A stretch of DNA of 64,000 nucleotides from Bacteroidales bacterium. GTDB taxonomy: Bacteria > Bacteroidota > Bacteroidia > Bacteroidales > Marinilabiliaceae. The notes below the pieces were generated by a model. That model was given only the letters and a program-made list of their open reading frames with translations. It searched no databases and had not been told where the DNA came from. The translations under genes and the position numbers were made by a program. Positions 34,695 to 64,000 of the stretch are shown here, piece after piece (position 1 is the first letter of the stretch; every line of letters begins with the position of its first letter). The stretch covers positions 62,001 through 126,000 of the forward strand of contig JAKSLE010000004.1 in the NCBI GenBank assembly GCA_024401365.1, in the 5' to 3' direction.

Positions 34695-34707
34695 ACGTAT
34701 TTATCAA

Positions 34708-37515: not shown

Positions 37516-37563
37516 TTTATTTTTCGGTAAAGGTAGCAAAAATACAACTCACCGAAAAATAAA
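37516..37563. promoter_or_regulatory. 13-bp perfect inverted repeat around the ATPase promoter
   Basis: TTTATTTTTCGGT (37516-37528) and ACCGAAAAATAAA (37551-37563) are perfect inverted copies. They flank the - strand -7 box TATTTTTG (37544-37537). The geometry suits an operator for a dimeric regulator, perhaps the ATPase itself when intact. Confidence 0.6.
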
Positions 37564-37693
37564 AGGTAAAAATGGTGCGTTTTTTTTGCAACATTTCTCC
37601 TATCGTAGTGACACTCACCGGCATGCGCTGAGCATAAACCGTCATGCCCAGTATCCAAAAGACTATTATGCCGACTATCCGTTTCAAGCCCAT
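37517..37693 (-). pseudogene. N-terminal remnant of a third toxin-like gene
   Basis: The ATG at 37693, directly after the FN3 gene's stop codon, opens MGLKRIVGII, then ILGMTVYAQRMPVSVTTI, matching residues 1-29 of the 1231-aa protein at 42662-46357. DNA 37601-37688 aligns with 46271-46358 with about six mismatches in 88. After that the frame runs 27 codons into unrelated promoter DNA of the ATPase pseudogene and stops at 37517. The signal peptide is kept and everything else is lost. Confidence 0.88.
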
Positions 37694-42661: not shown

Positions 42662-45600
42662 TTATCTATTAATGGTTATACTTATCTTTAGTTGAATGCC
42701 ATCAATACCAATGGCTTCAACTGCATTCTTCTTTTTTCTAACGTATGGTGACAATTGTCCGTTGAGAGCTCCAGATGAATTTAATACTTTCTTCATTGTC
42801 GTTCCCTTCGTATATGTAATCCGTAAATTCTTTTGTTCATGGTCTTTAAGTAATGTATAATTCTCATAACTTGTACCAGGCAAAAGACAGCCCGTTGCAT
42901 CCCAAACATAGTTTCCTGTATGAATTAATATTCCATCACGAGTTATTATTGCTCCATATTTATCGTTTTGTCCAAAAGTCTTTACCTTAAACTCATTTGA
43001 TGCATTACTTCGCGTAGATGATGGATTGCATTCATTGTACGGATAACAAACCTCATATGTACCTTCGGGAATGCGCATGCCAGTATTCGCAGTTCGCTCC
43101 TGCTCCGATGTACCTGCAGGTCTCTCCAATATGTATCCGTTTAGTGCACCATTATCAACGTTGTACGAACTGAGAGTATATAGACTGTCTGATTCAATAT
43201 TTGTCAACGTTATCTGTACGTTTGCCTTCTTATTATACAAGAATACATCAAAAATCCATTCATCATCTTCTTCAATAGTCAATTCCAACAATTTATATTC
43301 GGACAATTGTTGTGACCTTGGCACTTCTGGCTTTTCTTTCAATGCATGGAATGTATATTTTATAAAATCACCTGTCACATCTCCCGAATTAGATACTTTT
43401 TCTTTTGATACCTCATGCGGTTCTATCTTACTAGAAATATTGGCAGAAGAATTCAAAATTTTGTAAAGAGAGCTTCCTGTTAATGACACACTTATATTTT
43501 TAAATGTCTTGTTATTTATTTTGAATGTCTCTTTAAAAGTAGCTTGTCCCAAAGCAAATTTAGTCAACTCATATTGTTTTTCTCCTTTTATATTTTGCTC
43601 ACGTATCGCATACAATAACTCACTAAGAGCGGATTCGCTTGGAGACAAAATATTCTCGCTCTCCTCTTCCCCATCCAAGAAGCCCAACACATTCCTATGC
43701 TTCTCATGGCTCCACTGCCACTGCTTGTGGTTCAAGGCTGTGCCACCATTGTAGTCCATCAGGTTGTCAGTCTTTACCGTAGTGTGGAACGACTCACTAT
43801 CCTCAGAGAAGGTATGATGCAGCACGTTCACACCGTGGCCCAACTCATGAGCTATGGTTCTAACATTATCATACTGATTGTAAATAAAGCCGTAATGTCT
43901 GCCTGCTGGCATGTAGCCACTTACCGCTTCTCTGGAAACCATTCCCGCCGTGTCTAGTCGGTCGTAACAGTCTACAAAGAATAGGTAATAATCATTCTCA
44001 TCCACTCCCTCCGGTAATGCCCGGATAGCCGACTTCTGGTCTTCATTGTAGTTCTGGAACGTACCCTTGCCTCCATGCACAAACTTCTCTCCATCAGCGT
44101 AGCTGATACTTACAGGATCTAGCTCGTCAAACGTGTATCTGACCACTGCCTGCTGCCATATCTCATTGACCCCCTTTTCTATCTTGCTCAGGTCAAGTGG
44201 CTTCGTGTTATTCACTCTCACCAGATGCACTTTCACCTCCTTGTAGCTGTAGGCCTGCACGTTCAGCTTGCCTACAACGGTTGTGTCGTCATACGCATAT
44301 ATAGCCTGCTGGTCCGACATGCCGGCGTTGAAGGTCAGTGTATTGTTCTCTTTGTCGGCAATCAGTGGAACGCCTCGCTCATTCTTGAAGGTCAGGCCTT
44401 TTGTACGGCTTGCCTTTATCTTGACTTCTTCTCTCTTCTCTATGCCAAGGTAGGCAGGGCGGTAGTCGTTGTGTTCGGTGATTGTCGGATACTGGTCCTT
44501 GTCATAACTATTCTCTCGCCACTTGTCAAATCCATATTCTTCTCCATCTATCTTCTCAAAGGTTACATTGCCTGATGTTGCCATCAGGCTGTCTTTCTCG
44601 GCGTTGTACTGTTTAAGCAGCAAACTACTCCCTCCACAACTCTTGTACTCTTCCACTCCCATCACGTCTCCTTCCTTGTCTATCACCAGCTCATGACCTT
44701 TCTCGTCCTTCACCAATACTCGCCTTTCACCATTTATCATCGAGGTTATCTCTTCCCTCTTGCCGTCACTCGTCACCGCATAGTATCTGTTGTCTTCTCT
44801 TTCTATGGTCTCAAAGGTCACTCCATGGTCTATCTTCACAGTGTCCTTGATACTGCTGTTGTACGTCGCCCCGGCTATGTTCAGCGCCAACTCGTCTGCC
44901 CAGGCTACCATTGCTTCCGGGTCGACTACCAGCTTGTCCGACTTGACGGATCTCCACGTAAAGGCTCCCAGCATAACCCCGTCAGTATTCACCTTCAGGT
45001 GGTCATACTCCCCTAGTATCTTCACTCCCCATATGCTGAGCTTCGCGTACGACAATCCCCTGAACGTGCCGTCTTCATTCTTCACTGCTGTATGTATGAT
45101 GTACTTCGTCGTCCCTCTCTCGTTCTCCAGCGTGTCGCCTTTCGCCAGCGTCTCCCTCAACTCAAAGTTGGTTATCTTCCTTCGCTCTGCAAATTCTCCG
45201 CACTCGTATGGCTTGCCGTTCTCGTCGGTCAGTGGCTTGAAGGCTTCTGGTACCTTGAAGTCTGCCCACTCGCTCCACTCGCTCTCTACGTTGTTCTTGC
45301 ATATGCCTTGTACCCTCACATGCCACGTGTTGCCGTGGTCTCCGCCCATCTTGGCCGTGTAGTTCATGCCGCCCCACAACGTCTCCCTGTAGGTGCCTCC
45401 GTCGTCATATATCTCCACATTGTATCCGCCTACGTGTCGAAGGTCCATTTCCCACTTGCCTCTGCCATAGATGTCTTCTTGCTCTATCGTCACTCCGCAT
45501 ACCTCGGGACACTTGTCCAGATACTGGAAGGTCCTTACATCCGATTCGCCCTTGTTCTCTATCGTTACCATACCCGCAGGGTCATAGGCTGTCACCCTCC

Positions 45601-46357
45601 AGCAGTAGCGCATGCCTGCCTCCAGTGCCAGCGCTGCCTGAGGTATAGATACCGTCGTACCGGCTGTCTCTGTCGTATATATAGGTGGCACCGCCGCCAC
45701 TACCGCCTGCGCTGGTACCCCCTCCACACGCCTCTCCCACAGCTCTAGTCGGTACATGAGCGCATCCGTGCCGCCCGTGTGCTTCGATGGCTGCCAACTG
45801 AAGGTCAGCGGAAGCGAGATATTGCTCGGCTCATGCGCATTCTCCCTTGGATATACCAGCTCAGGTGGCTGATACGTGGTTATCCACGCAGTGACTGTGC
45901 CTACATTGGATATGGTCTTGTTGGTATAGTAGTGCCTAACACTTACCGAAAACTTCCATAGCCCCGCAGGAAGGTGTCCGCTCTTGAGGTAGGCCGACTT
46001 GCTTAGTCCCTTGAAACTGAGATTGTCTAGACGCAGACTCTGAGCCAGATCATCTCCTGTCAGTACCATCGCTTCGCCTCCTCCCACAAATAGAGGAGAA
46101 ACGGCTTGCGTAGCCAGACTCTCTATCGTTATGCCGGCACTCTCCATCTTGATGTGAAGCTTCACAGGCATCTCACTGACCGTCAGGTCATTAACCAGAA
46201 GATTCACCATCAGACGCGTCGACCCACTCTCCGCCATCGCCGACAACGACGTCGTGTACGGCGGAGTAAGTATCGTAGTGACACTCACCGGCATGCGCTG
46301 GGCACAAACCGTCATGCCCAGTATCCATATGAGTAATATGCCGACTATCCGTTTCAA
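42662..46357 (-). CDS. TANFOR/FN3-zincin protein with DUF5675-like variable tip (toxin A)
   Basis: 1231 residues from a TTG start; no in-frame ATG lies between it and the preceding gene's stop. Signal peptide 1-20. An N-terminal domain resembling TANFOR (VTTILTPPYTTSLS, LRLDNLSFKGLSKSAYLKSG), FN3-like domains (~148-255 and ~260-370), then a beta-rich middle. A zincin has HELGHGVNVLH with His837, Glu838, His841 and His847 (Asn844 where metzincins have Gly), and a Met-turn NLMDY at Met867. Up to Asp895 it is near-identical to the protein at the right edge; residues 896-1231 are unrelated to it. The tip contains a DUF5675-like segment (MRIPEGTYEV, RDGILIHTGN, DATGCLLPG), with a His and Cys reminiscent of L,D-transpeptidase folds. 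Probably a polymorphic toxin whose tip acts on peptidoglycan. No type IX sorting domain. Confidence 0.75.
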   Translation of the reverse strand: MKRIVGILLIWILGMTVCAQRMPVSVTTILTPPYTTSLSAMAESGSTRLMVNLLVNDLTVSEMPVKLHIKMESAGITIESLATQAVSPLFVGGGEAMVLTGDDLAQSLRLDNLSFKGLSKSAYLKSGHLPAGLWKFSVSVRHYYTNKTISNVGTVTAWITTYQPPELVYPRENAHEPSNISLPLTFSWQPSKHTGGTDALMYRLELWERRVEGVPAQAVVAAVPPIYTTETAGTTVSIPQAALALEAGMRYCWRVTAYDPAGMVTIENKGESDVRTFQYLDKCPEVCGVTIEQEDIYGRGKWEMDLRHVGGYNVEIYDDGGTYRETLWGGMNYTAKMGGDHGNTWHVRVQGICKNNVESEWSEWADFKVPEAFKPLTDENGKPYECGEFAERRKITNFELRETLAKGDTLENERGTTKYIIHTAVKNEDGTFRGLSYAKLSIWGVKILGEYDHLKVNTDGVMLGAFTWRSVKSDKLVVDPEAMVAWADELALNIAGATYNSSIKDTVKIDHGVTFETIEREDNRYYAVTSDGKREEITSMINGERRVLVKDEKGHELVIDKEGDVMGVEEYKSCGGSSLLLKQYNAEKDSLMATSGNVTFEKIDGEEYGFDKWRENSYDKDQYPTITEHNDYRPAYLGIEKREEVKIKASRTKGLTFKNERGVPLIADKENNTLTFNAGMSDQQAIYAYDDTTVVGKLNVQAYSYKEVKVHLVRVNNTKPLDLSKIEKGVNEIWQQAVVRYTFDELDPVSISYADGEKFVHGGKGTFQNYNEDQKSAIRALPEGVDENDYYLFFVDCYDRLDTAGMVSREAVSGYMPAGRHYGFIYNQYDNVRTIAHELGHGVNVLHHTFSEDSESFHTTVKTDNLMDYNGGTALNHKQWQWSHEKHRNVLGFLDGEEESENILSPSESALSELLYAIREQNIKGEKQYELTKFALGQATFKETFKINNKTFKNISVSLTGSSLYKILNSSANISSKIEPHEVSKEKVSNSGDVTGDFIKYTFHALKEKPEVPRSQQLSEYKLLELTIEEDDEWIFDVFLYNKKANVQITLTNIESDSLYTLSSYNVDNGALNGYILERPAGTSEQERTANTGMRIPEGTYEVCYPYNECNPSSTRSNASNEFKVKTFGQNDKYGAIITRDGILIHTGNYVWDATGCLLPGTSYENYTLLKDHEQKNLRITYTKGTTMKKVLNSSGALNGQLSPYVRKKKNAVEAIGIDGIQLKISITINR
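43676..44860. repeat. Long direct repeat, copy A
   Basis: About 1.18 kb aligned with 62804-64000 at very high identity, offset 19128 bp on the left part and 19140 bp on the right. The 12-bp difference comes from a divergent patch near 44185-44285. The copy B alignment continues beyond the window edge. Confidence 0.95.
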
Positions 46358-46383
46358 GATTCTTTTTCTTCTATAGACCTTTT

Positions 46384-49300
46384 CTACCTAGTAGATACTA
46401 CTTTTACTGCACGCCGCTCATCTCCTACAAATACCGATAGTACATACATACCACTGCCCCAGTCTCTTATATTCAGTCTGTGGTTATATTTGTCTGCACC
46501 TTTCAACTCTAGTTTTTCAATCTGTTGCCCCGTGTTGACACTGTTTATAGTGACTGTTACATCATACTCTTCTCGCAACTTGACAATCAGATTGAATTCG
46601 CCGTCATTCGGATTTGGTGTCGCTTTTACAGACTGGATAATAGGATCATAGCCTATCTCAAAATCAGCATCCTTGTCAAGCGCCTCACAAATATCAATAT
46701 GCTTGTCCTCAAATGACTCACAACCGCCGGAGTACGCCCACATGGTTATATAGTAACTTCCCGTTTCCCCTGCCAGTATATCTAGTCTGTCTCTGCCTGC
46801 ACCATATGGTGTCACATCACTGAAAATGTCAGTATTGTATACCCACCGCAGACTATCTATAGGCATATTTGATAATTCTATGAGTTCTATAGTATCATTC
46901 ACTGCCGCATCAGATGCCATGAGGAAATTCGCAATAAGCGCATTCTCGCCTATACTCAGGTTCACCGTATCCCTGGCTATACAGCCTATAGCATTGGTAA
47001 CCTTTATAGCATAGTCTCCCTCTTCACCTGTCGCCATATATCTGCCAGTCTCTATCTCTTCTCCAGTGGCAACTTTTCTCCACGAATATGTAGTATACTC
47101 TCCGCCGTCAAACACATGTACTCCTTTCGGACATATCAATACATCTTCTCCTAAGTATACCTTCAACTCTTCTGGCTCAGTAATCTCATAAGACGCAACA
47201 TGCTCACATCCATGCGCATCTTTGACTACCACCGTGTACTCCCCAGCTTTTATGCTGTCTAGATAGTTAGTAGTCTCCCCAGTGTTCCACAAATATGAGT
47301 AGCCCCCCACTCCTCCAATGGTAGCAGTCTCTATTCGCCCATCACTATATCCATAGCATAGTGCATTGCGAAGTCCCACTAATCGGTTCGATACTGAATC
47401 TGGCTCTTCTATCGTGAATTCAGATGTAGTATGGCAGTTGTTATCATCTCTTATCTCTACCTCGTACCTGCCTGCTGGCAATGTATTTACCTTCATCACT
47501 CCGCTCTGTCCTTGTGGCCACATCAACTTGAATGGGGATGCTGGTATACCAATTATTATATCAGTCGAATCTACAAATGCCGTGCCATCAGAAGAATTCT
47601 TACACAGGGCATCAATAGTCTGCACTCCATCTTGCTTTATACTAGGGTTATGCGACTCTGCTATGCGTACATCTTCTGTCTTGGCATAACAATCATGAGA
47701 GTCCCTTATCTCTACTCTATAGAGACCATTTTGTAACAGACCTTCGGCTTGCGTGAGCGTCAGACCTATATTCTTGTTCTTCGTATATACCTCTCCATTC
47801 TCCGCCCATTCATATTTGTATGGAAGCGAACCGCCTTTCATCCGTATCGATATCTTGCCGTTGTCTAGTTCACATGTCGTATGTACTACATCCATCAACG
47901 CCACCTCTAGTGAATCAGGTTCAGGGATATAGAATTCTATGGTGTCAGGTGTCTCACACCTGTTGTAATCCGTAAACGTGGCTGTATAGTGCCCCGATAA
48001 AAGATTGTCCCATCCTACCTGATCTCGCATGTCATAGGCTATCCCGTCTTTCAACATCAATGTCTTATATCCTGGTGTGCCTCCTGTAACATCAAATAGT
48101 ATCTTGCCATTACTGTCGCCTTTGCACTTCACACTGTCTATCGCCGCTACCGTCGCTCTCAACTCGTCTGGCTCTGTCAACCTCACAAATATACTGTCTA
48201 CTACACCATATTTGTCTATTACATAAAACTTACGCCTGCCAGCTGGAAGTTCTGTAAATATATTCGAGTTCTTATATACTCCTTCTTTAGCATCGGCATA
48301 CTGGTAGCCCGGCCAACCTCCCTCCGCCATTATCTTTGCTTCCGCACTTTTCTCATTGTAGCAGTTCGCTCGCTTGTCTGTCGAGGTTACCTTTATTGGT
48401 GCAGGCTCTTTTATCTCATAATTCTCTAATGTCAAGACATTTTCAGTACTGTCAGTTATTGATAGTGTATATATACCTGCTTGCAGATTGTCTATCTGTA
48501 ACCTTCCTGCCGTCTCCATCTCGTCCCCTACATTATCTCCTACTTCCGTGGAAATTCTTACTGTATACGGTGCAATACCCCCTGTTACATCCACGTTTAT
48601 CACTCCATCACTGTATTTCGGCCTGCTTACATGCCTCAATATCACTACATCGGCATCCATCTTTTCATATGACTCAATATGAAAATCAGCCAATACCTTG
48701 CACCCGTTTGCTAATATCCCCTCTACCGAATAGTCTCCTCCTGCTAAATCGTCAATAATATAACTGCTGCCGTCTTTCTTCACGTCTTTCAACTCTTTCT
48801 TCTCCTCGCCTATATATATGTATAGTCTCTCTACCGTTATTTCGTCTTCTTCACAGCGTAGCTTTACCAATCCATCTTTTTTCTCAAATGCCGTCTCCCT
48901 ATGTACTTCTTCTACTATAAACCTACGGTCTCCCTCTAACAGCAGTGAGTGTGTCTTCTCTCTTGTACACCCATTGGCATCTGTCACAGTTAAATGGTAT
49001 ATGCCATTCTTGTCTGTCGCAAAAGAGCTCTCCGTCCCCATCTCATTGCTGCCCGACATGTACTCCCATTTATACATATATGGCGCTGCCCCGTGGTCAA
49101 CTACTGCCGACATAACTCCCTTGTTGACCTCATATCTGTCTTCTATGCTCACTGTCATTTTGTTGTCTGGCACCTCAAATGTCAACTCCGACTCACATTC
49201 GTTCTTGTCTACTATCGTCATCACATAGCCACCAGCCTTATTGCTGCTCAGATTTTCAAACCTTATCTCCCTCTCCTCAACATCATATTCTTGTCCGCCA

Positions 49301-52300
49301 AAGAATAATTTGCATTGTGGATCTTCATCTTCAAATTCTATTTTTATAACACCTGTGTTCTCTTCGCATACCTCTGGAGTTATATCATATGTATATGAAA
49401 TCGGCTCTGGCGACGATATCACCAATACAGTATCCAACGTCACACCCATATCATCGGTCACATGCAACTCATATTTGCCTGCATACAGCCCCTCATAGGT
49501 AACTGTCTTACCTACAGTGCTTCTCGTCTCATGTTCACCTACCAAATCTATCTTGTAGTCACTCCACCCTCCTTCTACAGCAACCGTCGCACTGCCTACT
49601 CGGGAACGGCACAACGCAGCTGTAGTATTTATCTCTACCTTAAGCGGAGTCAATGGCGCAACTAATTCTACATCAACACTATTACTTGGACAGTTCTTGT
49701 TGTCTGTCGCTATAACAGTATACTTTTGGGCCGACAAATTACCTATACTATTGTACGTGCTTGTAGGTACCTGAGTAGTATTGGCTTCTACTATGACATA
49801 TTTATACCCATAGTTACCCCCATCTACGCGTACCTTTATCTCACCATCATCTCCTCCATAGCTCTTTATCTTTCCCTTTTCTGTACCATCTTCCCCATAA
49901 TACTTGTACTTAGGTTCTACAGCCAACTGTATTCCATCCGGCTCTTTTACTTCTATCGAATATTCGCCACTCTCACATTCATTATTGTCTTTCAACAATA
50001 TTTTGTATGTTCCCGCTTTCAAATCATGTATCGACTCAGAATATGGAATCCACCCCTTTTCATCAGACTTTTCCAACTCGGCATCCTTTTCTCCCTCCGC
50101 TGCATCTTCCTTCCCTACCTTCCAATACTTCATCTCCGTCACAGATACAGCATTACCATTTAGAGACCCATTAGTCTTCACCTCAATCCCCTTTATCACA
50201 CCATCACTCAACCCATAACATGATACTGAGTCTGTCTGCGCACTCAGGACAGATGGGTTGGTATATTTTTTAAGAGTTATATCTTTAGTATATTTACAAA
50301 AATTCCCATCTATCACATAAATATAGTATGTGCCAAAAGGTAGACCACATTTCTCATACCCTTCTTTGCTTGCCAATCCTTGATATGTATCTTCTGTAAC
50401 ATTACTGCTTTTTAGTATGTCATCTATCTTTTGGTCTGATATTTCGTATATGTAACCAATTGATTTGCCATCTTCATCTAGTCGATTGGAACCTCCCGAT
50501 GCCTTAATCTGGATCTCGCCATTTCTTCCATCGATGCAATACGGATCTAAATGATTTTCAACAACCGATATTGGCGTAGGTTTCTTTACGGCAAATCTCC
50601 CTATATTCTCCTGCGGACATCCATTCTTTACATCTTTTAAATACAAAACATATTCACCTTCATTTACCACATCTATAGCCGCTTTACTATTACATGTTTC
50701 TAATTCCCCAATACTCTCTTTCCCATCGGCTTTTTTCAACCAATACTGCAACTGCGTATCATTCCTTCCACCTGCTATATTATTTATCTCAATGGTAGCA
50801 TAGTCACTATAACTACATTGGAAAGAAACTATTTCATCAACAGATGCACTTATCTTTTCCACTGTTGGGATATCTTCTGTATACGATCTAGCAGTGGAAT
50901 ACTTTATTAACAATGAAGAAGTAGATTTAATTCTCTCATCGGTACCGCTAGTTTCCTTGATAACATATGAAACACTTCCTGATTCTGTTCCCCCCAAAAA
51001 ATCATCATATTCATGTCCATTATGGATTATTTTTACTTTATCATTTGTAGCATTTATCTTATACTGTGCCACGTCACCGGGGCAATTATGTGGCTTAGGA
51101 ATATAAAATGAATGATTATTGGCAGTAAAAACATCTTTGACCTTTATTTCAGACAAAACCCATCGTTGCTCTGACTTTTCGCCATAGACATATTCTATCT
51201 TATGCACTAAATTTTCGTTAAGTTCTTTAAAATTCAAACCTTTGTTTCCATCAACAACAAAATAAGGTGTTATTTCCTGAACTGTTGTCGTACACTCTCC
51301 TGCGTTACTAATTTTTATTTCGCATCTACTCCCTTCTTTTTGGTCCTTGTCATATATTATTTCAACTTCAGCTTTGCAATAAGGTTCATTGATTGTTTCC
51401 TGTTTCGAAAGACTACATCCGTCCCATCTTGCATCAATTCTGTATTGTCCAGCAGGTTTCTGCAACTGTGAATAATAATTTGAAAATGGTTGATTATTGC
51501 ATGTCCACGACACATTATCAGGTATATTTTCTCCAGAAATTGCAATAGTTCCATTCCCTCCTATAGTATATGCATCATTTTTTATAATATTATACGAGAA
51601 TATTTTACTCCCTATAGAATATGATTCGCTTTCCAATTCACACGTACGACCTTTCCCATCTTCAATTTCAACTCTTACACTATAATTAGACCCCACATCA
51701 AGGCCATCGAATCTTATTGTATTATCTTTTGTCTTTATAGATTTCCCCCTTACACTATTATTATACAATACGTATGTTTTCTCTATATTTGAATTATTAT
51801 TAAAATTGACAACGATTTTACCATTCGATTGACTATCACATGTAACATCATGCGGAATAACACTCGTTATACCATTGAATGTATTACTATTCTTGAAGGG
51901 TGATGGATATGAATATAAAATACCAAAATCATCCATTACTACAATGTCATTAATACCGATATTAGGCAAAATGACTGGCCCCTCTTCTATTGTAATAACT
52001 TGTTGCTGAGATACCATATAATATAATGGCATGTTCCCCTTGTTGTCATTATTAATTTGAACTGTGACCGTTCCGTCATTAGAACAGACGCTACTAGGAT
52101 TTGTATTAGGGACAAATGAAAGACTCGGCTTTATAGGCTGTTTAACATTGACTGAAATATCAGTATTTTCAGTTCCTGTCTCATAAGCAGGACAGCCATC
52201 GTTGTCGTTGATGCTGATAATATAGTCTGTATTCGCTTTAATATCGTCGATTCTATAACCATGCTTAGTTAGCAAATAGTTCTGGAAAGAACTTTCCTTG

Positions 52301-54534: not shown

Positions 54535-54535
54535 A

Positions 54536-55963
54536 TTACTCTATTTCTTTAACACCACGAATGGAACAACGCTCACCCATATCAACACCATGCGTATATG
54601 TTATAATACCATCATTTCCTGTCCAAATACCTACAACAATAAGAGACGTATCATAGGTGTAATAGAATGCAGCAGAATTCACAGAATAATTGATGCCGTT
54701 GTTGCTAATCATACCAAATGGCTTCGCATTAAACTGTGAACCTTCACCAATGATTTCACTACCATCTTCTGTATTATACCAACCATACTGACTTCGTAAT
54801 CTAGCACCAACACCCTGATCCTTATAATGCTCTGTATTATATATCAATTGGTTATATCTATCTATATATTCTTCTTTGCTTTCATAATTTAATGCGTTAA
54901 CTATAGACGAAATATAGGGCACTTTATCATCAAGTGGCTGTGCTCCATAATAAGACAACAAGTCATCCCAATCTTCTTTTTTTGACAGCTTGTAACCTTC
55001 TGGAAGAATTTTGTTAATTGACGCTAGATGAGAACATGTTGTAAATATTGGATACAAATAGCCTTTTTGTCCAGATTTTAGAACAGACTCTTCGGAATAG
55101 GGCGTTGGAGGTTCATGATATTCTTTTGGATTGTAGTAATAATATATACTATTAGAGTTGTAATATTCATAAGCTTTCTTATATCTCAAATCGTCGACCA
55201 TCCAAGTTTTATTGCCAATCTTTTTTACTCGATAAACATTATATTGTGCATCTCTGACTTGCTTTGATTTATCAAGGAATATTTCTTTAGTAGTCTGAAC
55301 TGCTTCACATACCTTATCCCCGACTTGCAGATCTGCAGATACCTTTACGGTATATAATATTGGTTCATAATAAAGGCCATTCTTGTCATCCCAATCTTGC
55401 CAAAAAGCATCATAGTTTTCCTGATTAACCGTATATTCTGTCTGACTCTTAGGAAGTTCAATATTTAAATTAACTGTATTGAAACCAGTAGTGTCTGCAA
55501 TAACGGACAATCTGAGATTTGTATATTCACTATCAATTTTATCACTCCATTTAATAATCATTGCAGATTCGCCTTCGCCATTGTCTGTCGACAACCCGAA
55601 ATCGACATCTGGGACACAATAAAAAGTCCTTATAGGCGACTCAGTATAGCTATGACCTGTTGATACTTTCACATACCAAAAATATTGTGTATATGGAGTT
55701 AATTCTACTTTACCAGACACTCGCTCCATATCATCAACTGATTTACCCAAATAATAATGGTAATATATATCCAAACTTTGATCTTCAACTATGCTTCCCG
55801 ATGCTGAAAGACTAATTATAGTATCTCTTACTACTACTCCGTCTTCAAGACTAAATGTTGTAGGAATGGAAGGAACGTTACTTGGTCCCTCGTCTTTGCA
55901 CGAGTAAAAATTGACCGCCATAACAATGCTTGCTAAAGCATAAAGTAATTTCTTTAGTTTCAT
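54536..55963 (-). CDS. FISUMP-domain lipoprotein
   Basis: 475 residues. Lipobox NFYSC with Cys22, followed by KDEGPS. An Ig/FN3-like N-terminal half (TPYTQYFWYVKVSTG) and a C-terminal Fibrobacter succinogenes major paralogous domain: VKKIGNKTWMVDDLRYK, LPEGYKLSKKEDWDDLLSY, GARLRSQYGW, FNAKPFGM, CSIRGVKE. FISUMP proteins are surface lipoproteins of unknown role. It sits between the 1496-aa protein (6 bp) and the adhesin (1 bp), so is part of the same transcript. Confidence 0.85.
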   Translation of the reverse strand: MKLKKLLYALASIVMAVNFYSCKDEGPSNVPSIPTTFSLEDGVVVRDTIISLSASGSIVEDQSLDIYYHYYLGKSVDDMERVSGKVELTPYTQYFWYVKVSTGHSYTESPIRTFYCVPDVDFGLSTDNGEGESAMIIKWSDKIDSEYTNLRLSVIADTTGFNTVNLNIELPKSQTEYTVNQENYDAFWQDWDDKNGLYYEPILYTVKVSADLQVGDKVCEAVQTTKEIFLDKSKQVRDAQYNVYRVKKIGNKTWMVDDLRYKKAYEYYNSNSIYYYYNPKEYHEPPTPYSEESVLKSGQKGYLYPIFTTCSHLASINKILPEGYKLSKKEDWDDLLSYYGAQPLDDKVPYISSIVNALNYESKEEYIDRYNQLIYNTEHYKDQGVGARLRSQYGWYNTEDGSEIIGEGSQFNAKPFGMISNNGINYSVNSAAFYYTYDTSLIVVGIWTGNDGIITYTHGVDMGERCSIRGVKEIE

Positions 55964-55969
55964 ATCTTT

Positions 55970-58900
55970 TTATTTTTGTTTGATTTCTGCGTTAAGTTTA
56001 TATGTTGAAGTTACACCCTTGCCAGGTAAAACATATTTGAATATTACAGGATATTGACCGTATACCAAATTGGGTATCTGGTCGTATGATAGTAGCTTGT
56101 CTATACTCCCCGAAGATGTATTCCCCTTACTTATATGATTCGCCAATTTTTTGCATATATCATCGAAATCTTCATTAACAAACGTCATTGAGCAATCAAT
56201 CAAAATGCTACTATTATAAACAGAATATAACGATCCTGTTCTTAAGCTGCTATCCTTAAGTTTATGATCTGTATTCTGAATATCAAAGTCTAGCACTTCT
56301 CTAGTTTTATATCGATTCAAATAATCACCTACAATCGTCACTATATCGGTATTTTTATACATCAATGGATTTAACCTATAGACAAACCAACTATTATTGT
56401 CATGATCAGGAAACATCTGAATCAAACTCTTACTCAGATCATCTTTCCGATACTCATAACTGTCAAAAGATTCGACAATGTTGTTGTTATCAACAATATC
56501 TGTCAGCAGTTTAAATATAGGTCCACAAACTTGCCCTGCTCTAATTTCTCCCACACTCATCCTCCCCATCTTCTCCACAAACGTCTCATACGAACTAGTC
56601 CTAAAATCAATCGAATAAATCTCCGTCTGTTCTAATTCTTCCAGATTTCCATGCGCCTCATGCTTCGTCTCCGTTATATCTCCTCCTTTTATTTCTTCGG
56701 CTATCTTGCTAACTTTGTCTTGAATATTGGCATCCTTCTCTACAATCTTCCTTGGCACATTGACTAGCGCCATATTGTAGATCTTGTTCTTTTCTAAATT
56801 GACACCCCCTATAGGTATGTCTATCTCAAACGCTACATCTTTAATGTCACTTACATTTCTATACTTAAATGGCACTTTTATCTGATCTCCTTCTAATGTC
56901 GTAAACTGTACCTCCTGATCAAACCCTTCATGATTCTTACTTTCAAATAGATACCCATAATCCTTCGAAACCAAAACATACGCCTCTCCATACTCCTTTG
57001 TCAAAAAGTTGTACTGACGATTGGCAGGATACGCATACTTAATATGTTTAGCCTCAATATGGTCTGGCCGTTCTCCCGACGTGAACGTAATCGTCTTGTC
57101 TTCATAATACGGCTTGCCATCTTCCCCCATCACCGATACCCACTTTTTGCCATCCCATCGCTCAAATGTTACTTTTGCATATATACTATACTCTGTCTTG
57201 CTCTCTAGCGGCTTTTCTGTATCATACGTCCATACTCGCTTGTCTTCACTGCTCGTGACAGTAAACTGAATGATTTTTCCTCCCTTTTCTTTTACTGTAA
57301 AATCCGAAATCCCTACCTTGTACGTCTCTCTCTTGCCATTCTCTTCCTCAATGGTCATTTGCTCATTCGCAGGTATGTTGAGTACCAACTGTGGCGAAAC
57401 AAATACATTCACATCACTGGTTCTGTCCGCTGGCGTAAGTTGCGATATCACATCTTCTCCAAATGGAGAACCTCCAATTATTTTACACTTGTCTCCAATC
57501 TCAAAATCAAAGTTGCAATGTCCCTTGATAAGCCCTCCTAATAACTTGAAACTTCCTCCTACAGCTCCAGTGAAATACATTGGATTTGGTCCCGCTCCCT
57601 TTAGAAACGCTGCCATGTCTCCATTGATTATGTCAAATTTGCGCTCTTTCTTGAATAACTTTACTCTCATACCAATGGCTGCATGAACCCATGCCCATGC
57701 CTGTGCTTCTGCATACCACCCATTTACTCCTATAGAACCCGACATGCCTTCACAATGTGCCAAATTGGGCATCTTCTTCAGTAGCATTTCGGTTCCCATC
57801 CCTATACCCAACTGCGCATAAAAAGGTATGAGCTTTGCATCAAGGTCTAATTTCAAATCTGCGCCAAACGCTAAACCTTTACCAGCCCCTAATAATCCTG
57901 CATCTGTTCTGTTCTCAAGCTTACTTACTTGGCTCGGTGATAGTTGGCTCCTGACTTGTTCTGGCAATGGCGAAAGTCCTTTTATTCCATCGCCTACCAT
58001 AAAATAGCCTTGCGCTGTCGCTAATTTTACAGATCCAAGCTTGAGATCCAATCCCACTTTTTCTTCCGAAGTCCCTACATAGGTATACCACTTGTCTTTC
58101 GAAAAATAGGCAGATGCCCTTCCTACACTATTGTCGGGCCCCGAGCCTGTCAAAACACCTGCTACATCTAGATACGCCTTCATGTCAGCCGTAAATACAT
58201 CATTGTCTAAATCGTACTTCATGCCCAACATGGCCGTAAGCGCTTCTTTACTAGCTGGCTTCGTGTCTAGGTATCTCTCGTCATATTGTATTATATCCCC
58301 ACTCTTGGTCTTGGCACCGGCCAACATCCCCTTCATTCCATCTATTATCGACGATTGCTGCTCTCTTCCAAGCATCTTCGCCAGACCTCGCAACTGTATG
58401 AATTTCAATCCCCACGTATTGCTGAATTGCATCTCAAAATTCACATCAGCATCAAATAACGTAGGCGATCCTGTCAGACAAAACTTTGTCCTAGCCAAAA
58501 AGCCCATGCCAATATTCTTGTCAGGGACATAGTTTATTCCCGATAATGTCTCGCCAAATGAACTGCTGGGATTGCCCATGTTCTGCTGCATATGATTATA
58601 CATTCCTCCTCCAAAACCATAAAAACTCAAGGCTGGCGGAACTTGTATACCCGCAGCTGGCGTCGTCATGTACAACATGTCCGTAAGAAAATATTTGTAC
58701 CCGTCTTTGCGTCCAAACACCCCTACTGCAGCAATCTCAAATTTTTTTATAAGATTAAACTTGATATCTCCTCTGAACCCTTTGCCATATATTTCATCCC
58801 CATCAGCAAAAACAACTGTACCATCAACCGAAAATACTTCCGAATTGCTGGAAATGTGAACTTTGTCTACATCTACTTTCTTGAATCTCCACGTCCTGTC

Positions 58901-60460
58901 GTCTCCATATAGATTAATCCCAGTTCTGCTATTAAATATTTCATGAATATCTAACGCAGCATCAACATGAATCCCTTGCCCATCTCCATTCTTGAAACTG
59001 CTTATCTTTGATAACGTCAACTTAAACCCAGCCATGCTCGGTGTCTCCATTTCCCCATTTAGAGAAACCGTGCCAAGGTCAAACTTTTCGCGACTTATTA
59101 TCATATTCTCAAAACGCAGACTTGGCAACTTCAACTTACTGTTTATCGTGTCTTTGCTTATCGGAGCGTCTACACTCAATATTCCATTGGCATTAATAGT
59201 CGGATATATACCGTCAGAACCCAGACTTAACGATACTCGCGTGGTATTATCTAATGATAGTTTCGCACACAACATAGGAAAGTCTAACGTCTTTCCTAAA
59301 CTCGACATCAAAACAAATTTCCTTCGCTCTATATCATAATTCGCCGAATAGTCCAACATCGAACTCTTGCCTAAGGGCGGAATGTTGACCTTTCCTCTAA
59401 ACCCAACTTGCGAAATTATACCCTTATGTATCTCAAGTAGAAAATCATTGACACTTATAGCCCACGATTGCGGATCTATACTGCCATCACTTATTACCTC
59501 CCTCGCCTCGGCACTGCCCGAAAAACCATTGCCGTCTATCAATACATTTTCAAGCTGTAGTGTCGTTCGCTCCTTCCTGCCATTATCTTCTCTCGACATA
59601 TGCTCGGGAAGCGTAACACTCGCCCGCGCTATGGCTAACCCTTGCCAGTTGTTGCGACTCATCTCTGCATCTGCCCCTCCAAAATAGTTGCTCGGGAAAT
59701 TAGCCGATACTGGCGTACTATGTATACTGTGGTCAAGCGTAATGTTGCTAATGTTAAAAACAAAGCCTTCTAACCCCTTTATCGCAAACTTCTCTTCTAT
59801 ATTCAACGCCACTGTAAAATCATCTAGATTCGAAAACTTCACCTTCGTCGCAAACGTAAGCGCCCCTAAATCTTCGTTTCCAGTACGCGTCACATATATA
59901 TTCGCACTGTCTAATACAAATGCTATGCTAGCATCAACCTCTTGAAAACCATTACAACCAAAATGCAACAAACTGCCTTCCCTAAAAATCAACGAACTGC
60001 CATGGCCTAACTTCTTTTTCTTAGGTGCAATAAGTTCCAACTTACCATGCGTCCCCACTCCATTTTCTCCCTCTATCATCGCAATACCTTCAAATGCTAT
60101 AACATCGTTATTCCCCATAGGGATAACACATACTGCCTTGATATATAGCCTCTGCTCTTCATCATTATACATCTCTTCTATGCATATCGTATAATCTTTA
60201 GATTTTAGACCTACTGGAAGAGGAATACTATTGTCCCTGACTATCTCTACTAGTGAACTTATATAGCTTTTCGTCTGTTCAACCTTCTCTAACAAAGCTA
60301 AGGCATTCCCCATACGCTTCTCCTGCTCCGGTGTCATGTCAAGAGAGGCTACAACATTCTGCGTAATTCCCGCTGAAACAGTAGCGTCAGAAGACTGCGC
60401 CCGCAAAAAAATCGCAGACGTCAATATGACAAACAATATACAGGAGACAATCCTAAACAT
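55970..60460 (-). CDS. 1496-aa exported protein of the surface locus, unknown function
   Basis: Signal peptide 1-22 ending LRAQ. Long beta-rich protein: ~100-560 holds repeated strand-turn units (LENVLIDGNGFSGSAEAREV, LRFENMIISREKFDLGTVSL), ~560-1000 is glycine-rich and barrel- or solenoid-like (IQVPPALSFYGFGGGMYNH, TKFCLTGSPTLFDADVNF), ~1000-1130 an Ig-like segment (KPLESKTEYSIYAKVTFERW), and a mixed C-terminal part. From memory, similar giant proteins lie beside TANFOR-type proteins in other Bacteroidota. No enzymatic motif or type IX signal. First gene of the transcript that continues through toxin A. Confidence 0.6.
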   Translation of the reverse strand: MFRIVSCILFVILTSAIFLRAQSSDATVSAGITQNVVASLDMTPEQEKRMGNALALLEKVEQTKSYISSLVEIVRDNSIPLPVGLKSKDYTICIEEMYNDEEQRLYIKAVCVIPMGNNDVIAFEGIAMIEGENGVGTHGKLELIAPKKKKLGHGSSLIFREGSLLHFGCNGFQEVDASIAFVLDSANIYVTRTGNEDLGALTFATKVKFSNLDDFTVALNIEEKFAIKGLEGFVFNISNITLDHSIHSTPVSANFPSNYFGGADAEMSRNNWQGLAIARASVTLPEHMSREDNGRKERTTLQLENVLIDGNGFSGSAEAREVISDGSIDPQSWAISVNDFLLEIHKGIISQVGFRGKVNIPPLGKSSMLDYSANYDIERRKFVLMSSLGKTLDFPMLCAKLSLDNTTRVSLSLGSDGIYPTINANGILSVDAPISKDTINSKLKLPSLRFENMIISREKFDLGTVSLNGEMETPSMAGFKLTLSKISSFKNGDGQGIHVDAALDIHEIFNSRTGINLYGDDRTWRFKKVDVDKVHISSNSEVFSVDGTVVFADGDEIYGKGFRGDIKFNLIKKFEIAAVGVFGRKDGYKYFLTDMLYMTTPAAGIQVPPALSFYGFGGGMYNHMQQNMGNPSSSFGETLSGINYVPDKNIGMGFLARTKFCLTGSPTLFDADVNFEMQFSNTWGLKFIQLRGLAKMLGREQQSSIIDGMKGMLAGAKTKSGDIIQYDERYLDTKPASKEALTAMLGMKYDLDNDVFTADMKAYLDVAGVLTGSGPDNSVGRASAYFSKDKWYTYVGTSEEKVGLDLKLGSVKLATAQGYFMVGDGIKGLSPLPEQVRSQLSPSQVSKLENRTDAGLLGAGKGLAFGADLKLDLDAKLIPFYAQLGIGMGTEMLLKKMPNLAHCEGMSGSIGVNGWYAEAQAWAWVHAAIGMRVKLFKKERKFDIINGDMAAFLKGAGPNPMYFTGAVGGSFKLLGGLIKGHCNFDFEIGDKCKIIGGSPFGEDVISQLTPADRTSDVNVFVSPQLVLNIPANEQMTIEEENGKRETYKVGISDFTVKEKGGKIIQFTVTSSEDKRVWTYDTEKPLESKTEYSIYAKVTFERWDGKKWVSVMGEDGKPYYEDKTITFTSGERPDHIEAKHIKYAYPANRQYNFLTKEYGEAYVLVSKDYGYLFESKNHEGFDQEVQFTTLEGDQIKVPFKYRNVSDIKDVAFEIDIPIGGVNLEKNKIYNMALVNVPRKIVEKDANIQDKVSKIAEEIKGGDITETKHEAHGNLEELEQTEIYSIDFRTSSYETFVEKMGRMSVGEIRAGQVCGPIFKLLTDIVDNNNIVESFDSYEYRKDDLSKSLIQMFPDHDNNSWFVYRLNPLMYKNTDIVTIVGDYLNRYKTREVLDFDIQNTDHKLKDSSLRTGSLYSVYNSSILIDCSMTFVNEDFDDICKKLANHISKGNTSSGSIDKLLSYDQIPNLVYGQYPVIFKYVLPGKGVTSTYKLNAEIKQK

Positions 60461-60780
60461 CTACCTAATGTGCTGACTATGTGAAGAAAGCGTCGTAAAA
60501 TTAACAAAATAATACAATACAGCAATATTGTTTACCTTTTTTTGCAATATTTTCTCAATACAATAATCCATCCTAAATAAAGGTACCCATAATCAATCCA
60601 CCCTTTACCCGGTCTTGAATTATAAATGCTATGATACATTCTCTATTTAGCATAATCTTAAATTGTACGATTTTTAGGGAAGCATACATAGGCCACATAC
60701 GAATTTTCCACTAGCACAAACGCTGTAGTTAGGATTATGCGTAACAGCAATATGTGAATGGTATGTTTCAAAATAATATT
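60461..60780. other. 320-bp AT-rich intergenic region
   Basis: No gene seen. It separates the candidate immunity gene on the right from the 1496-aa gene. On the - strand an imperfect -7-like TATTATTTTG occurs near 60513-60504, and GCAATATT is directly repeated at 60523 and 60544. The promoter of the downstream operon should be here, but I cannot place it firmly. Confidence 0.4.
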
Positions 60781-61356
60781 TTACTTAAACGGATTAAAAT
60801 TTTTATCACCAAAGACTTGCTCGCGTTTCTCGTCGGTAGCAAAGATTAAGAGATACATGTAGCGCAAAAGCAATATGGCGCAGATTGCGCCTATCGTTGC
60901 AAATATAGCAAAGGGCATCGGACCTTGATGGTAATTTTTCTCAACAAATGAAGACTGACGAATATATGTAAAACTACTATCAACAAGTTCCAATGACCTT
61001 ATATAGTCATTTTCTTGCCAATAATTAATTTTTGCATATTTGTTATTTAGTAACCTTTGCCACGTTTTTTCATCTTTCATCTTTCCATCAATTTCTCTTA
61101 TTTTTATTGTCTTAACACTACCATCATTTAATTGTATTTTAATACGATAATAAATATCAACACCCTTTGCTCCTCTTACATGATTATAGTATTGTCTATC
61201 TTCATAAAATTCTTTAATTAAAGCTGTTGTACTTATTGGCGTTAAGTGATATGGTTGATACATATGAGATAAAACACCACTAACTAAAAACAAAATGAAA
61301 ATATACTTACGTCTAACCCTGCATAAAACCTTATCAATAAACAACATTTTCATCAT
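60781..61356 (-). CDS. Two-helix membrane protein, candidate immunity protein for toxin B
   Basis: 191 residues. Membrane helices ~17-33 and ~146-172 frame a ~110-residue extracytoplasmic domain (VDIYYRIKIQLNDGSVKTIKI). Its start codon lies inside the 3' end of the preceding toxin-like gene: ATG at 61356, toxin stop at 61334, a 23-bp overlap. A nearer ATG at 61347 is possible. AT-rich like the toxin tip. Overlap with a variable toxin end and membrane localisation suit an immunity protein; no family recognised. Confidence 0.5.
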   Translation of the reverse strand: MMKMLFIDKVLCRVRRKYIFILFLVSGVLSHMYQPYHLTPISTTALIKEFYEDRQYYNHVRGAKGVDIYYRIKIQLNDGSVKTIKIREIDGKMKDEKTWQRLLNNKYAKINYWQENDYIRSLELVDSSFTYIRQSSFVEKNYHQGPMPFAIFATIGAICAILLLRYMYLLIFATDEKREQVFGDKNFNPFK

Positions 61357-64000
61357 TCATAATAATTTGTAACTCGGCAATTAATTGCTTGATTTTTTCT
61401 TTTTCATTATCAGAAATATCTTTTTTATCTGATTGGTATGTTGAAATTAAATTTAATCCGTTAATAACAGAACTAATTACATCACGACTTAGCAAATCAT
61501 TTACAACCGATTTTTGTGTTGTAACTGCTTGATAAGATTCATAAATAACTTTCCACTTTGATCTAAATATTTCATAATTGAAAGAATCACTTTCTTTACT
61601 CTCCAAATACTCTTTCATATCATCCATATCGATAATCTTATCAACACTCGACAGTGAAAAATCAGTCAATTGCACAAAGTCGGCAACGGTAAGGACTTTG
61701 ATGCCGCCTTGCAGTACTTTTATGGTCTTAATCGCTGCTACACAATAGAGTGCATTATCAAGTATATCTACCTTGAACTCAGAAAGTTTTGTATTGAGCA
61801 TATAGGCATGGAAGAACACGGGCATATTTACCGTCGTGCCTGCTTGAAACCCAAGCACATCGGTTTCAAAATGAACTGCAATTATGTCGGACGGCAATAG
61901 CTGCGTGCGTCCTTGCGTTTGCAACAGCCATCGTTCTACTTTTGGAATGTATCTATATGTCTGACACCAAACATTATATTTACCATCGATTAGTGGCACG
62001 TCATCGCCCTTCAGTTCCGACTGCCATTCTCTAAAATAGCAATTTGGGCTAATGCTAATATTACCAACTGATATTGGCTGTATGTAACCTCGCTCTAAAT
62101 CAGCACCATACGCTTTAACATAAAGGTCAACCATCACTTTAATGAACTCAGAATAATTGGCTTGTCCATTAAAGTTATCGATTGCATGCGACAATGTTTC
62201 GTACAATTCTGATTTGTTTTTGAAAAGATATTCTAATGCTTTACGGGCATCATATTCGTTTGCAAGCGACACCCGTAACAAATTGATTATCATATCTTCA
62301 TAATTCTCACCAACTATAAATTTTTCACTCAATGCGGTAATGAGCGCATTTCGCTCATTGATATTGAGCGATTCGTAAACGCAATATGAGTTATTGTACA
62401 ATGCGTCAATGGCTTCTGAGGTTTTGCCTTGTTGAATCAAATTACTAATTATCTCACGTTGTGCGTCAAAATTATTATTATTCAAGTATTTTTCAAAATT
62501 CAAATCATCTATCTCATTTACAAGGAAATAAAACTCACCAAAGTCGTATTTTACTTTCGTATTGTTATATGTTGTTTTGGTGTATGGCAATTTGATTTCG
62601 TAGGTTTGGTATCGTTTATGTGTGTCGCCGAAATAGCACTCTGCGTAACAATTAGTTAATGAATGTTTCGCATTCACATACGTGTAAGGCGAATTCATAA
62701 CAACCATCGTGCGTTTTGTTGCTATGCAACAACGCAATTTTTCAATAATTTCAGTTATAAGTTCCGTCTTGTCGATTTTTATCTCACTCTCCCCCTCATC
62801 ATCCAAGAACCCCAACACATTCCTATGCTTCTCATGGCTCCACTGCCACTGCTTGTGGTTCAAGACTATGCCACCGTTGTAGTCCATCAGGTTGTCAGTC
62901 TTTACCGTGGTGTGGAACGACTCACTATCCTCAGAGAAGGTATGATGCAGCACGTTCACACCGTGGCCCAACTCATGAGCTATGGTTCTAACATTATCAT
63001 ACTGATTGTAAATAAAGCCGTAATGTCTGCCTGCTGGCATGTAGCCACTTACCGCTTCTCTGGAAACCATTCCCGCCGTGTCTAGTCGGTCGTAACAGTC
63101 TACAAAGAATAGGTAATAATCATTCTCATCCACTCCCTCCGGTAATGCCCGGATAGCCGACTTCTGGTCTTCATTGTAGTTCTGGAACGTACCCTTGCCT
63201 CCATGCACAAACTTCTCTCCATCAGCGTAGCTGATACTTACCGGTTCTAGCTCGTCAAACGTGTATCTGACTACTGCCTGCTGCCATATCTCATTGACCC
63301 CCTTTTCTATCTTGCTTTGGTCTAGCACCCGTTTGTCTTGACCATCTTTCTTTATGCGAACCAGATGTACCTTAGCCTCCTTCGGGTCATAAGCCCTCAC
63401 ATCTAGCTTGCCTACAACCACAGTGTCTTCATACGCATATATAGCCTGCTGGTCTGACGTGCCGGCGTTGAAGGTCAGTGTATTGTTCTCTTTGTCGGCT
63501 ATCAATGGCACGCCACGCTCGTTCTTGAAGGTCAGGCCTTTTGTACGGCTTGCCTTTATCTTGACTTCTTCTCTCTTCTCTATGCCAAGGTAGGCAGGGC
63601 GGTAGTCGTTGTGTTCGGTGATTGTCGGATACTGGTCCTTGTCATAACTATTCTCTCGCCACTTGTCAAATCCATATTCTTCTCCATCTATCTTCTCAAA
63701 GGTTACATTGCCTGATGTTGCCATCATGCTGTCTTTTTCAGCGTTGTACTGTTTAAGCAGCAAACTACTCCCTCCACAACTCTTATACTCTTCCACTCCC
63801 ATCACATCACCGTCCTTATCTATCACCAGCTCATGACCTTTCTCGTCCTTCACCAATACTCGCCTTTCACCGTTTATCATCGAGGTTATCTCTTCTCTCT
63901 CGCCGACACCCGTCACCGCATAGTATCTGTTGCCTTCTCTTTCTATAGTCTCAAAGGTCACTCCATGGTCTATCTTCACAGTGTCCTTGATACTGCTGTT
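61334..64000 (-). CDS. Second TANFOR/zincin-type protein with different variable tip (toxin B), 5' end outside window
   Basis: Open to base 64000; the first codons in view (SSIKDTVKIDHGV) match the interior of toxin A, so the N-terminus lies beyond the edge. The zincin HELGHGVNVLH has its first His codon at 62977, and the Met-turn is present. Identity with toxin A stops at the Asp codon 62803-62801. The remaining 488 residues are unrelated to toxin A: a helical middle (NINERNALITAL, NYEDMIINLLRVSL, NYSEFIKVMVDLY) and a segment around DNALYCVAAIKTIKVLQG that resembles the helical pre-toxin region of other Bacteroidota polymorphic toxins. No recognised nuclease or other catalytic motif in the last ~100 residues. 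No type IX sorting domain. Confidence 0.75.
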   Translation of the reverse strand, partial: NSSIKDTVKIDHGVTFETIEREGNRYYAVTGVGEREEITSMINGERRVLVKDEKGHELVIDKDGDVMGVEEYKSCGGSSLLLKQYNAEKDSMMATSGNVTFEKIDGEEYGFDKWRENSYDKDQYPTITEHNDYRPAYLGIEKREEVKIKASRTKGLTFKNERGVPLIADKENNTLTFNAGTSDQQAIYAYEDTVVVGKLDVRAYDPKEAKVHLVRIKKDGQDKRVLDQSKIEKGVNEIWQQAVVRYTFDELEPVSISYADGEKFVHGGKGTFQNYNEDQKSAIRALPEGVDENDYYLFFVDCYDRLDTAGMVSREAVSGYMPAGRHYGFIYNQYDNVRTIAHELGHGVNVLHHTFSEDSESFHTTVKTDNLMDYNGGIVLNHKQWQWSHEKHRNVLGFLDDEGESEIKIDKTELITEIIEKLRCCIATKRTMVVMNSPYTYVNAKHSLTNCYAECYFGDTHKRYQTYEIKLPYTKTTYNNTKVKYDFGEFYFLVNEIDDLNFEKYLNNNNFDAQREIISNLIQQGKTSEAIDALYNNSYCVYESLNINERNALITALSEKFIVGENYEDMIINLLRVSLANEYDARKALEYLFKNKSELYETLSHAIDNFNGQANYSEFIKVMVDLYVKAYGADLERGYIQPISVGNISISPNCYFREWQSELKGDDVPLIDGKYNVWCQTYRYIPKVERWLLQTQGRTQLLPSDIIAVHFETDVLGFQAGTTVNMPVFFHAYMLNTKLSEFKVDILDNALYCVAAIKTIKVLQGGIKVLTVADFVQLTDFSLSSVDKIIDMDDMKEYLESKESDSFNYEIFRSKWKVIYESYQAVTTQKSVVNDLLSRDVISSVINGLNLISTYQSDKKDISDNEKEKIKQLIAELQIIMNDENVVY
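62804..64000. repeat. Long direct repeat, copy B
   Basis: Counterpart of 43676-44860 in the same orientation; it begins exactly where the two encoded proteins become alike and runs off the right edge. Confidence 0.95.

Follow-up and report, generated by a model that had tools for sequence, protein, structure and literature searches.

What keeps two large proteins almost identical over most of their length and then lets them end in two unrelated tips? The question is raised by a stretch of 64,000 nucleotides from a Bacteroidales bacterium of the Marinilabiliaceae (assembly GCA_024401365.1, contig JAKSLE010000004.1, positions 62,001 to 126,000 of the forward strand), called the window in the following. 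The original prediction, made from the sequence without database searches, took the two proteins for polymorphic toxins, each followed by its own small immunity gene. We call them toxins A and B. We propose that A and B are divergent TANFOR-type polymorphic toxins with their own immunity genes, which would be displayed on the cell surface, cut by a zincin domain and directed into a victim by a module within the tip. We assign this reading a probability of about 0.7; delivery, cleavage and toxicity of A and B are its parts that we infer. The coordinates of all features are collected in Table 1.

Unrelated tips on a shared body

Residues 1–895 of A can be aligned with residues 1–899 of B up to the same Asp, with one gap of four residues. 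The differences are few and lie mainly in the signal peptide and around residues 520–720. Near-identical bodies through the zincin had been claimed, and this is borne out by 97% DNA identity across 2641 bp. Nucleotides 200–1500 of the bodies are identical, and nucleotides 1500–2200 range from 59% to 100% identity per 100 columns, a pattern as after a recent duplication or gene conversion. The start of B lies beyond the window; the whole gene is L004:5335-9498, corresponding to 123334-127497 of contig C34.

Complete divergence after the Asp had also been predicted. This needs a small correction, as an acidic motif (GEEESE in A, DEGESE in B) is still present in both proteins. The sequences part about six residues after the zincin and are unrelated beyond, and the comparison of the two tips gave no BLASTP match at E 1e-3. 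The tip lengths of 336 and 488 residues and the codon positions at the divergence were right, and the tips are indeed AT-rich, with a G+C content of 0.352 (A) and 0.350 (B) against 0.517 and 0.511 for the bodies. The two genes are not strictly in tandem, as three large genes and the next gene of B intervene. Neither is a tip a single unit: each consists of a middle module and a further end part. The two tips are unrelated to each other as stated.

Homologues of the body were examined for variation at the C-terminus, and many different tips were found. The first set comprises 103 non-redundant tips from the genomes of the family and from 80 named loci (the top 80 among 324 relatives), after open reading frames (ORFs) cut at the 3′ end, tips shorter than 60 amino acids (aa) and repeats had been dropped. 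For 98 of these tips, there is a next gene within 150 bp. A held-out set added 73 tips, from which 10 truncated zincin ORFs, eight repeats (same last 60 residues) and three tips shorter than 60 aa had been removed. Together, this gives 176 tips, 166 of them with a next gene.

The next genes are similar in 37 of the 103 pairs of tips with similar ends, a number that averaged 0.43 and never exceeded 5 over 2000 permutations. Among the 13,592 other pairs, 23 have similar next genes. The proposed co-variation of tip and next gene thus holds for part of the pairs. Neither observation named beforehand as a refutation, one and the same tip throughout or next genes that do not follow the tip, was made. 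The other 66 of the 103 pairs, which have no detectable similarity between their next genes, weigh against it, as does the next gene of B, which matches none of the other 165 at E 1e-3. In the window, a small gene lies directly at the end of each tip (Table 1); the two are unrelated to each other and of the exported or membrane type, all as described before. For A, a second case of the pair exists at locus L124, with an A-like tip (46% identity, last 150 residues) and an A-like next gene (46% over 392 aa). This pair (L124:2-1117) is found in a metagenome-assembled genome labelled Firmicutes (UBA1065), which may be a binning error or may mean that the pair moved between phyla.

Middle modules, effector ends and predicted compartments

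Tip A is composed of a 130-residue module, called module A, and a DUF5675 end; tip B is composed of a long module B and about 92 further residues. The modules were defined from the tip sequence alone. For a module hit to count, E 1e-3 sufficed in the first set, and the held-out set required E 1e-5 and coverage of at least 40% of the model. The first set holds module A in nine tips, D in seven, B in 24 and E in four, besides further groups and 20 singletons. Over all 176 tips, the counts are 12 for A, 11 for D, 34 for B and eight for E. Modules A to F were compared pairwise by profile, and none are related.

The effector ends were scanned with Pfam. From the first set, the scan covered every tip with module A (nine), D (seven) or B (24), some via the same contig under another locus number, as well as one of the four E tips and some other tips; the E limits were 0.1, 0.01 and 0.05 in different batches. 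No Pfam family covers the modules in the scanned tips. The search with tip A (residues 896–1231), which had been suggested as a check, returned DUF5675 above the cut-off (34.8 bits against a gathering cut-off of 26.7). Among the A and D tips, seven of 16 have a family above the cut-off: DUF5675 (A, L124), M23 (L093_3532, L105), GH108 with PG_binding_3 (L103_3149), CHAP (L050) and a C39-like peptidase (L047). Below the cut-off are CHAP in L112 and C39 in L087_2172. Seven of the 24 module-B tips also have a family above the cut-off, namely ADP-ribosyltransferase (ART)-type domains (L102, L149), EndoU (L134), Endonuclea_NS_2 (L114) and PT-HINT (L122, L145, L147); TNT in L144 is below it. Tips free of these modules carry TNT (L048) and C39 (L057_1455), both above the cut-off. 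Peptidoglycan is the substrate of M23, GH108 and CHAP domains, and the targets of nucleases and ARTs are cytosolic. These predicted effector types agree with the module-to-compartment pattern given below. With the DUF5675 end of A itself, a PDB sequence search gave one chance match only (E 0.56), and a search of viral contigs for relatives gave 92 pattern matches, of which none was confirmed.

These ends also bear on another view of A and B, namely that they are surface or secreted peptidases or adhesins with the zincin as effector and the tips as antigenic variants. The conserved zincin motif and the adhesin-like SprB and Fn3 neighbours would suit it, but M23, GH108, CHAP, EndoU, ART, TNT and nuclease ends would not, nor would next genes that are specific to the tip, nor locus L052, in which the zincin is degenerate and a long tip is kept. 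We regard this view as very improbable, and a solitary adhesin or peptidase was rejected because of the toxin-type ends and the co-varying next genes. Co-variation together with curated toxin-type domains at the same place in homologues supports the original interpretation as a polymorphic toxin/immunity system: A and B are, as far as sequence comparison can tell, polymorphic toxins whose next gene tends to co-vary with the tip.

Next, the location of the next-gene products was predicted. With the first location caller, the first set gave exported products for 7/7 module-A and 6/7 module-D tips and membrane proteins for 4/4 module-E tips; for module B, 21 were cytosolic, two membrane and one exported. 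A second caller gave 7/7 exported for A, 7/7 exported for D, 4/4 membrane for E, and 20 cytosolic, two membrane and two exported for B. The prediction was fixed in writing before the held-out sequences were analysed, and the second caller was then applied. In the held-out set, the next genes were exported for 3/3 A and 4/4 D tips, membrane for 4/4 E tips and not exported for 8/9 B tips (Fisher p 0.0014). The held-out set is largely independent of the first, as only one of its 73 tips and none of its 68 next genes reach 70% whole-length identity to it, and in 14 of 20 held-out loci with a module the next gene has no first-set match at E 1e-3. Combined over 166 pairs, exported calls amount to 21/21 for A and D versus 3/33 for B (p 4e-12). 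Module E stands at 8/8 membrane, and module B at 24 cytosolic, six membrane and three called exported. Counted per next-gene family in the first set, A and D have 12 exported and none otherwise, and B has two and 22, respectively. Taxonomy as the cause of this rule was rejected, because the pattern persists inside the order of the window, where the exported calls are 19/19 for A and D and 1/14 for B (each order being assigned manually, based on record titles and on kinship). Similar effector ends were found in 14 pairs behind A and D, in 29 pairs of an A or D tip with a module-free tip, and in no pair of an A or D tip with a B tip. For the latter, permutation gave a mean of 5.9, and none in 7 of 2000 runs.

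From these data, we propose an exchangeable "address" module between zincin and effector, in which A and D would leave the effector in the periplasm, E would send it to the inner membrane and B would take it through this membrane. Module B would then be an inner-membrane entry device and, where it has no passenger, the toxin itself. We see the chances for and against this proposal as even.

Several points weigh against it. Of the 176 tips, 111 have none of modules A, B, D and E, and the next genes of such tips fall into all compartments (49 exported, 42 cytosolic, 13 membrane); therefore, the rule covers 65/176 tips. Modules A and D, which share one predicted compartment, are unrelated. No Pfam family above the cut-off was found in 9/16 A or D tips and 17/24 B tips of the scan. 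The location caller was home-made: of 1041 pseudo N-termini, 99 came out as exported and 83 as membrane, an exported rate about equal to that seen for B, and the caller missed the export signal in 9 of 59 full toxins. In single cases, the calls conflict. The module-D case L158 was cytosolic to the first caller, and the homologous next genes of L144 and L161 were called exported and cytosolic, respectively.

The middle module could instead be a wall-binding domain or a spacer and module B a structural neck, with the link to the compartment incidental to the travel of the effectors; A and B would still be polymorphic toxins. Since similar ends follow A, D or no recognised module (a C39-like end is also present in the module-free L057_1455), A and D are perhaps not needed for action in the periplasm, and the absence of a Pfam family over the modules fits a spacer as well. 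However, a mere spacer does not lead one to expect that the unrelated modules A and D both occur solely with exported next genes (21/21). Nor would a passive neck explain why membrane-type next genes accompany short but not long module-B tips. We consider this explanation unlikely.

The latter difference concerns toxin B directly. Among module-B tips of 488–571 aa, a transmembrane (TM)-type segment is present in 7/8 next genes, whereas among those of at least 621 aa, it is present in 0/25. Seven of the short tips can be aligned over their full length, and most of their next genes have the order TM, soluble part, TM. B is grouped with the short tips, but BLAST gave no significant match for its next gene. 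Because short module-B tips pair with TM-type next genes and long ones do not, we infer that B is probably a membrane-active toxin and its module B an inner-membrane entry domain. L135, which has a short module-B tip and a soluble next gene, argues the other way.

The hydrophobic stretches of B are weak (in module B, near tip residues 306–390; best 19-aa mean 1.27). They would be easier to understand if B were an enzyme toxin of another kind, with its activity in the last 92 residues and an immunity protein anchored in the membrane for a different reason. This is possible, but we doubt it, as the next genes of all seven aligned short tips have an N-terminal or internal hydrophobic segment (7/7) and those of the longer module-B tips do not.

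The proposed mechanism for A and B would run as follows. The toxin would be displayed on the cell surface, helped by the type IX secretion system (T9SS) and by the SprB, barrel and Fn3 neighbours. The zincin would cut at the acidic junction and free the tip, which would enter the victim with the middle module as its address, like the entry domains of contact-dependent inhibition (CDI). Module A or D would leave the effector in the periplasm; the DUF5675 end of A may there damage peptidoglycan, and the exported 392-aa neighbour would guard the periplasm of the producer. Module B would insert into or cross the inner membrane, and long tips would carry an enzyme inside that acts in the cytosol. 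Short tips such as that of B would have no passenger, and the module itself would be membrane-active, which would be why the putative immunity protein of B is small and membrane-bound.

Carrier, neighbouring genes and spread of the cassettes

In an alignment of 30 sequences (A1), the zincin shows HELxHG, a later His and an NLMDY turn; the row of L052 is degenerate. We take it to resemble the metzincins. TIGR03952 matches weakly over the motif, in A only. A motif E(x)[GS]E, as at the acidic junction, occurs within the first 40 residues of 90/176 tips versus 9/860 control pieces.

The carrier had been guessed to be TANFOR-like. A profile of the N-terminal 270 residues of 17 homologues was compared by hhalign with a profile of the N-termini of four loci that TIGR02542 detects; the match has E 4.4e-45 and spans 261 columns, and a reversed control gave a probability of 0.5 percent. 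The TANFOR profile was built from four of the five loci found with TIGR02542 (L079, a partial match, was excluded), all five of which are below the curated cut-off of the model. Against the kinship stands that TIGR02542 itself has no match in the own genome at E 1 and none on A or B in the NCBIfam scan at E 0.1. Across the phylum, it matches 3/247 genomes, none above the cut-off. Because the N-terminal profiles match although TIGR02542 alone misses, the carrier of A and B is, by profile comparison, a divergent TANFOR relative, and the guess was right at this level.

Table 1 Features of the window (positions 1 to 64,000; all on the minus strand)
Feature	Coordinates	Strand	Description
Toxin A	42662..46357	(-)	1231 aa, initiated at TTG; composed of signal peptide, body (TANFOR-like/Fn3-like), zincin and tip
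TANFOR-like N-terminal region of A (~residues 20-290)	45488..46300	(-)	profile-profile match
Zincin of A	43673..44290	(-)	HELGH, later H, NLMDY turn; alignment A1, 30 sequences
Acidic junction motif of A, GEEESE	43655..43672	(-)	perhaps where processing or crossover takes place
Middle module A (tip residues 16-147)	43232..43627	(-)	also in 8 more of 103 tips and in 3/73 held-out tips
DUF5675 effector end of A	42863..43165	(-)	PF18925, E 1.6e-8; HxGN...GC kept in L124
Putative immunity gene of A	41478..42656	(-)	392 aa, signal peptide; 5 bp past A
Toxin B, part in the window	61334..64000	(-)	whole protein 1387 aa
Zincin of B	62801..63430	(-)	alignment
Acidic junction motif of B, DEGESE	62783..62800	(-)	motif comparison
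Middle module B in its wide definition (tip residues 1-396, with 15-228 as core)	61613..62800	(-)	
Last 92 residues of B	61337..61612	(-)	alignable to the terminal parts of other short module-B tips
Putative immunity gene of B	60781..61356	(-)	191 aa, membrane protein; 23 bp overlap with B
1496-aa probably exported protein	55970..60460	(-)	no Pfam or NCBIfam family
FISUMP (Fib_succ_major) protein	54536..55963	(-)	475 aa; PF09603
SprB-repeat protein	46384..54534	(-)	2716 aa; PF13573 and PF18962 above cut-off; T9SS C-terminal sorting domain
Presumed outer-membrane barrel	39715..41427	(-)	570 aa; presumed from sequence; no Pfam family
Fn3-like protein	37694..39715	(-)	673 aa; homologues mostly downstream of toxins
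Stub with a third copy of the toxins' signal peptide and a lost body	37517..37693	(-)	58 aa; sequence match

The companion genes had been suggested to form one surface system with the toxins. Among the 80 named loci, the barrel has homologues in 41, the 673-aa Fn3 protein in 22, the SprB protein in 21 and the 1496-aa protein in 18; the SprB homologues are all upstream of the toxins, and as these repeats are common, some of the matches are perhaps unspecific. At least one of the four is present in 49 of the 67 loci whose flank extends beyond 3 kb on a side. In 71 genomes, barrel and body occur together in 20, the barrel alone in four, the body alone in 11 and neither in 36 (p 2e-6); in the own genome, which is incomplete, the barrel has one match. 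The FISUMP protein was set aside as a part of the system, with a homologue in one of 196 related loci (many with short flanks).

Regarding export, the own genome has SprA, the sole part of the T9SS machinery that was searched, and ten matches to the T9SS C-terminal domain (CTD), five above the cut-off. The Pfam and NCBIfam scans gave no Por_Secre_tail or CTD match on A or B, which speaks against this route. No Pfam family of two-partner secretion (TPS) domains was found on A or B at E 0.1, and there is no CdiB among the scanned neighbours, the rest of the genome not having been searched.

The body is present in 31/71 genomes of the family; the zincin was found in 37/393 sampled genomes of the order and 11/395 of the phylum, own genome included. 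The 92 zincin ORFs in the named loci comprise 53 with at least 480 aa before the zincin, six that start 100–480 aa before it, 17 that start inside it or at most 100 aa before it, and 16 that are cut at the 5′ end. For the 94 held-out zincin ORFs, the respective numbers are one, 10, 24 and 59, where the 5′ cuts are mostly due to the short stretches taken. In both groups, the starts were set mechanically. Some short zincin ORFs may be frameshifted genes, and L195 looks so. In the single-contig genome G673, a 15.8-kb stretch (L197) holds five consecutive zincin ORFs, each with a tip. A gene starting MQIPDIKKRLPI, which is presumably a CHC2-type primase, is near the toxin cassettes in four of the five stretches of this genome (L194, L195, L197, L208). 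Because of this primase-like neighbour, if rightly recognised, the cassettes may travel with a mobile element.

Four contigs of the two related genomes G055 and G057 (L066-L069) break off within the toxin body, which would be expected of repeats in several near-identical copies; hence, toxin counts in draft genomes are perhaps too low. The 58-aa stub in the window, right after the Fn3 gene, contains a third, truncated copy of the first 29 toxin codons (37601-37687), with the signal peptide and the initial residues of the body. Similar N-terminal stubs are present in G057 and G055, and they look as if toxin bodies had been lost by recombination. Next after the stub in the window, there is an ATPase-like remnant with a weak DUF234 match below the cut-off. 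A 1278-aa protein at 30871-34707 (-) has a response-regulator-like segment (below the cut-off) and a PPDK ATP-binding domain.

Comparison with known systems

The toxin class itself is known. TANFOR toxins with their immunity proteins are established, and export by the T9SS was proposed for them (Jana, Salomon, Bosis 2020, PMC7073777). According to the main text of that paper, A and B share with them the signal peptide, the TANFOR-like N-terminus with Fn3, the variable C-terminal toxin domain, the immunity function in the next gene (putative for A and B), SprB/CTD and Fn3 neighbours and a genome that bears the T9SS. They differ in that TIGR02542 misses A and B. This main text does not use the terms peptidase, zinc, protease, orphan, barrel or entry, so that the zincin, orphan cassettes, barrel and entry-type modules appear undescribed there. 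A literature search for the TANFOR domain by name found solely this paper, with subscription journals mostly outside its scope. A search, of the same scope, for polymorphic toxins with type IX, Bacteroidota, metallopeptidase, zincin or autoprocessing gave, among the matches listed, titles and beginnings of abstracts in which the middle modules are not described; neither are they in the portions consulted of PMC13288982 or PMC12419801. Apparently new are the zincin with its acidic junction and the arrays of cassettes, but most of all the rule that links module and compartment.

A peptidase before a variable tip is also found in other polymorphic toxins, e.g., those with PVC-metallopeptidase, and recombination with standalone toxin cassettes is a further likeness to the systems of Zhang 2012 (PMC3482391); the carriers differ. 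For DUF5675, the listed titles give a Vibrio phage context and no toxin role. In the literature consulted, antagonism linked to the type IX system is hypothetical, and an entry step is not described there.

Should the modules be entry domains, the module of an uncharacterised toxin would tell in which compartment this toxin acts. A site of action could then be predicted for uncharacterised effector families, DUF5675 among them, and the passage through the inner membrane of the victim would become testable. The rule is a simple statement about sequences that can be checked on more Bacteroidota genomes.

In CDI, the variable junction of CdiA is marked by the short motif VENN. The carrier there is a different one, and here a zincin precedes the junction. 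Like the tips described here, the CdiA-CT toxins combine a modular entry domain with a toxin domain, and they include ionophore-type toxins with small hydrophobic immunity proteins, which the proposed pair of toxin B would resemble (PMC11630599). This likeness is one of arrangement and not of compared module sequences. By analogy, the entry-domain logic of CDI would be the nearest functional model for the correlation seen here, in which an exchangeable domain in front of the toxin goes with the target compartment.
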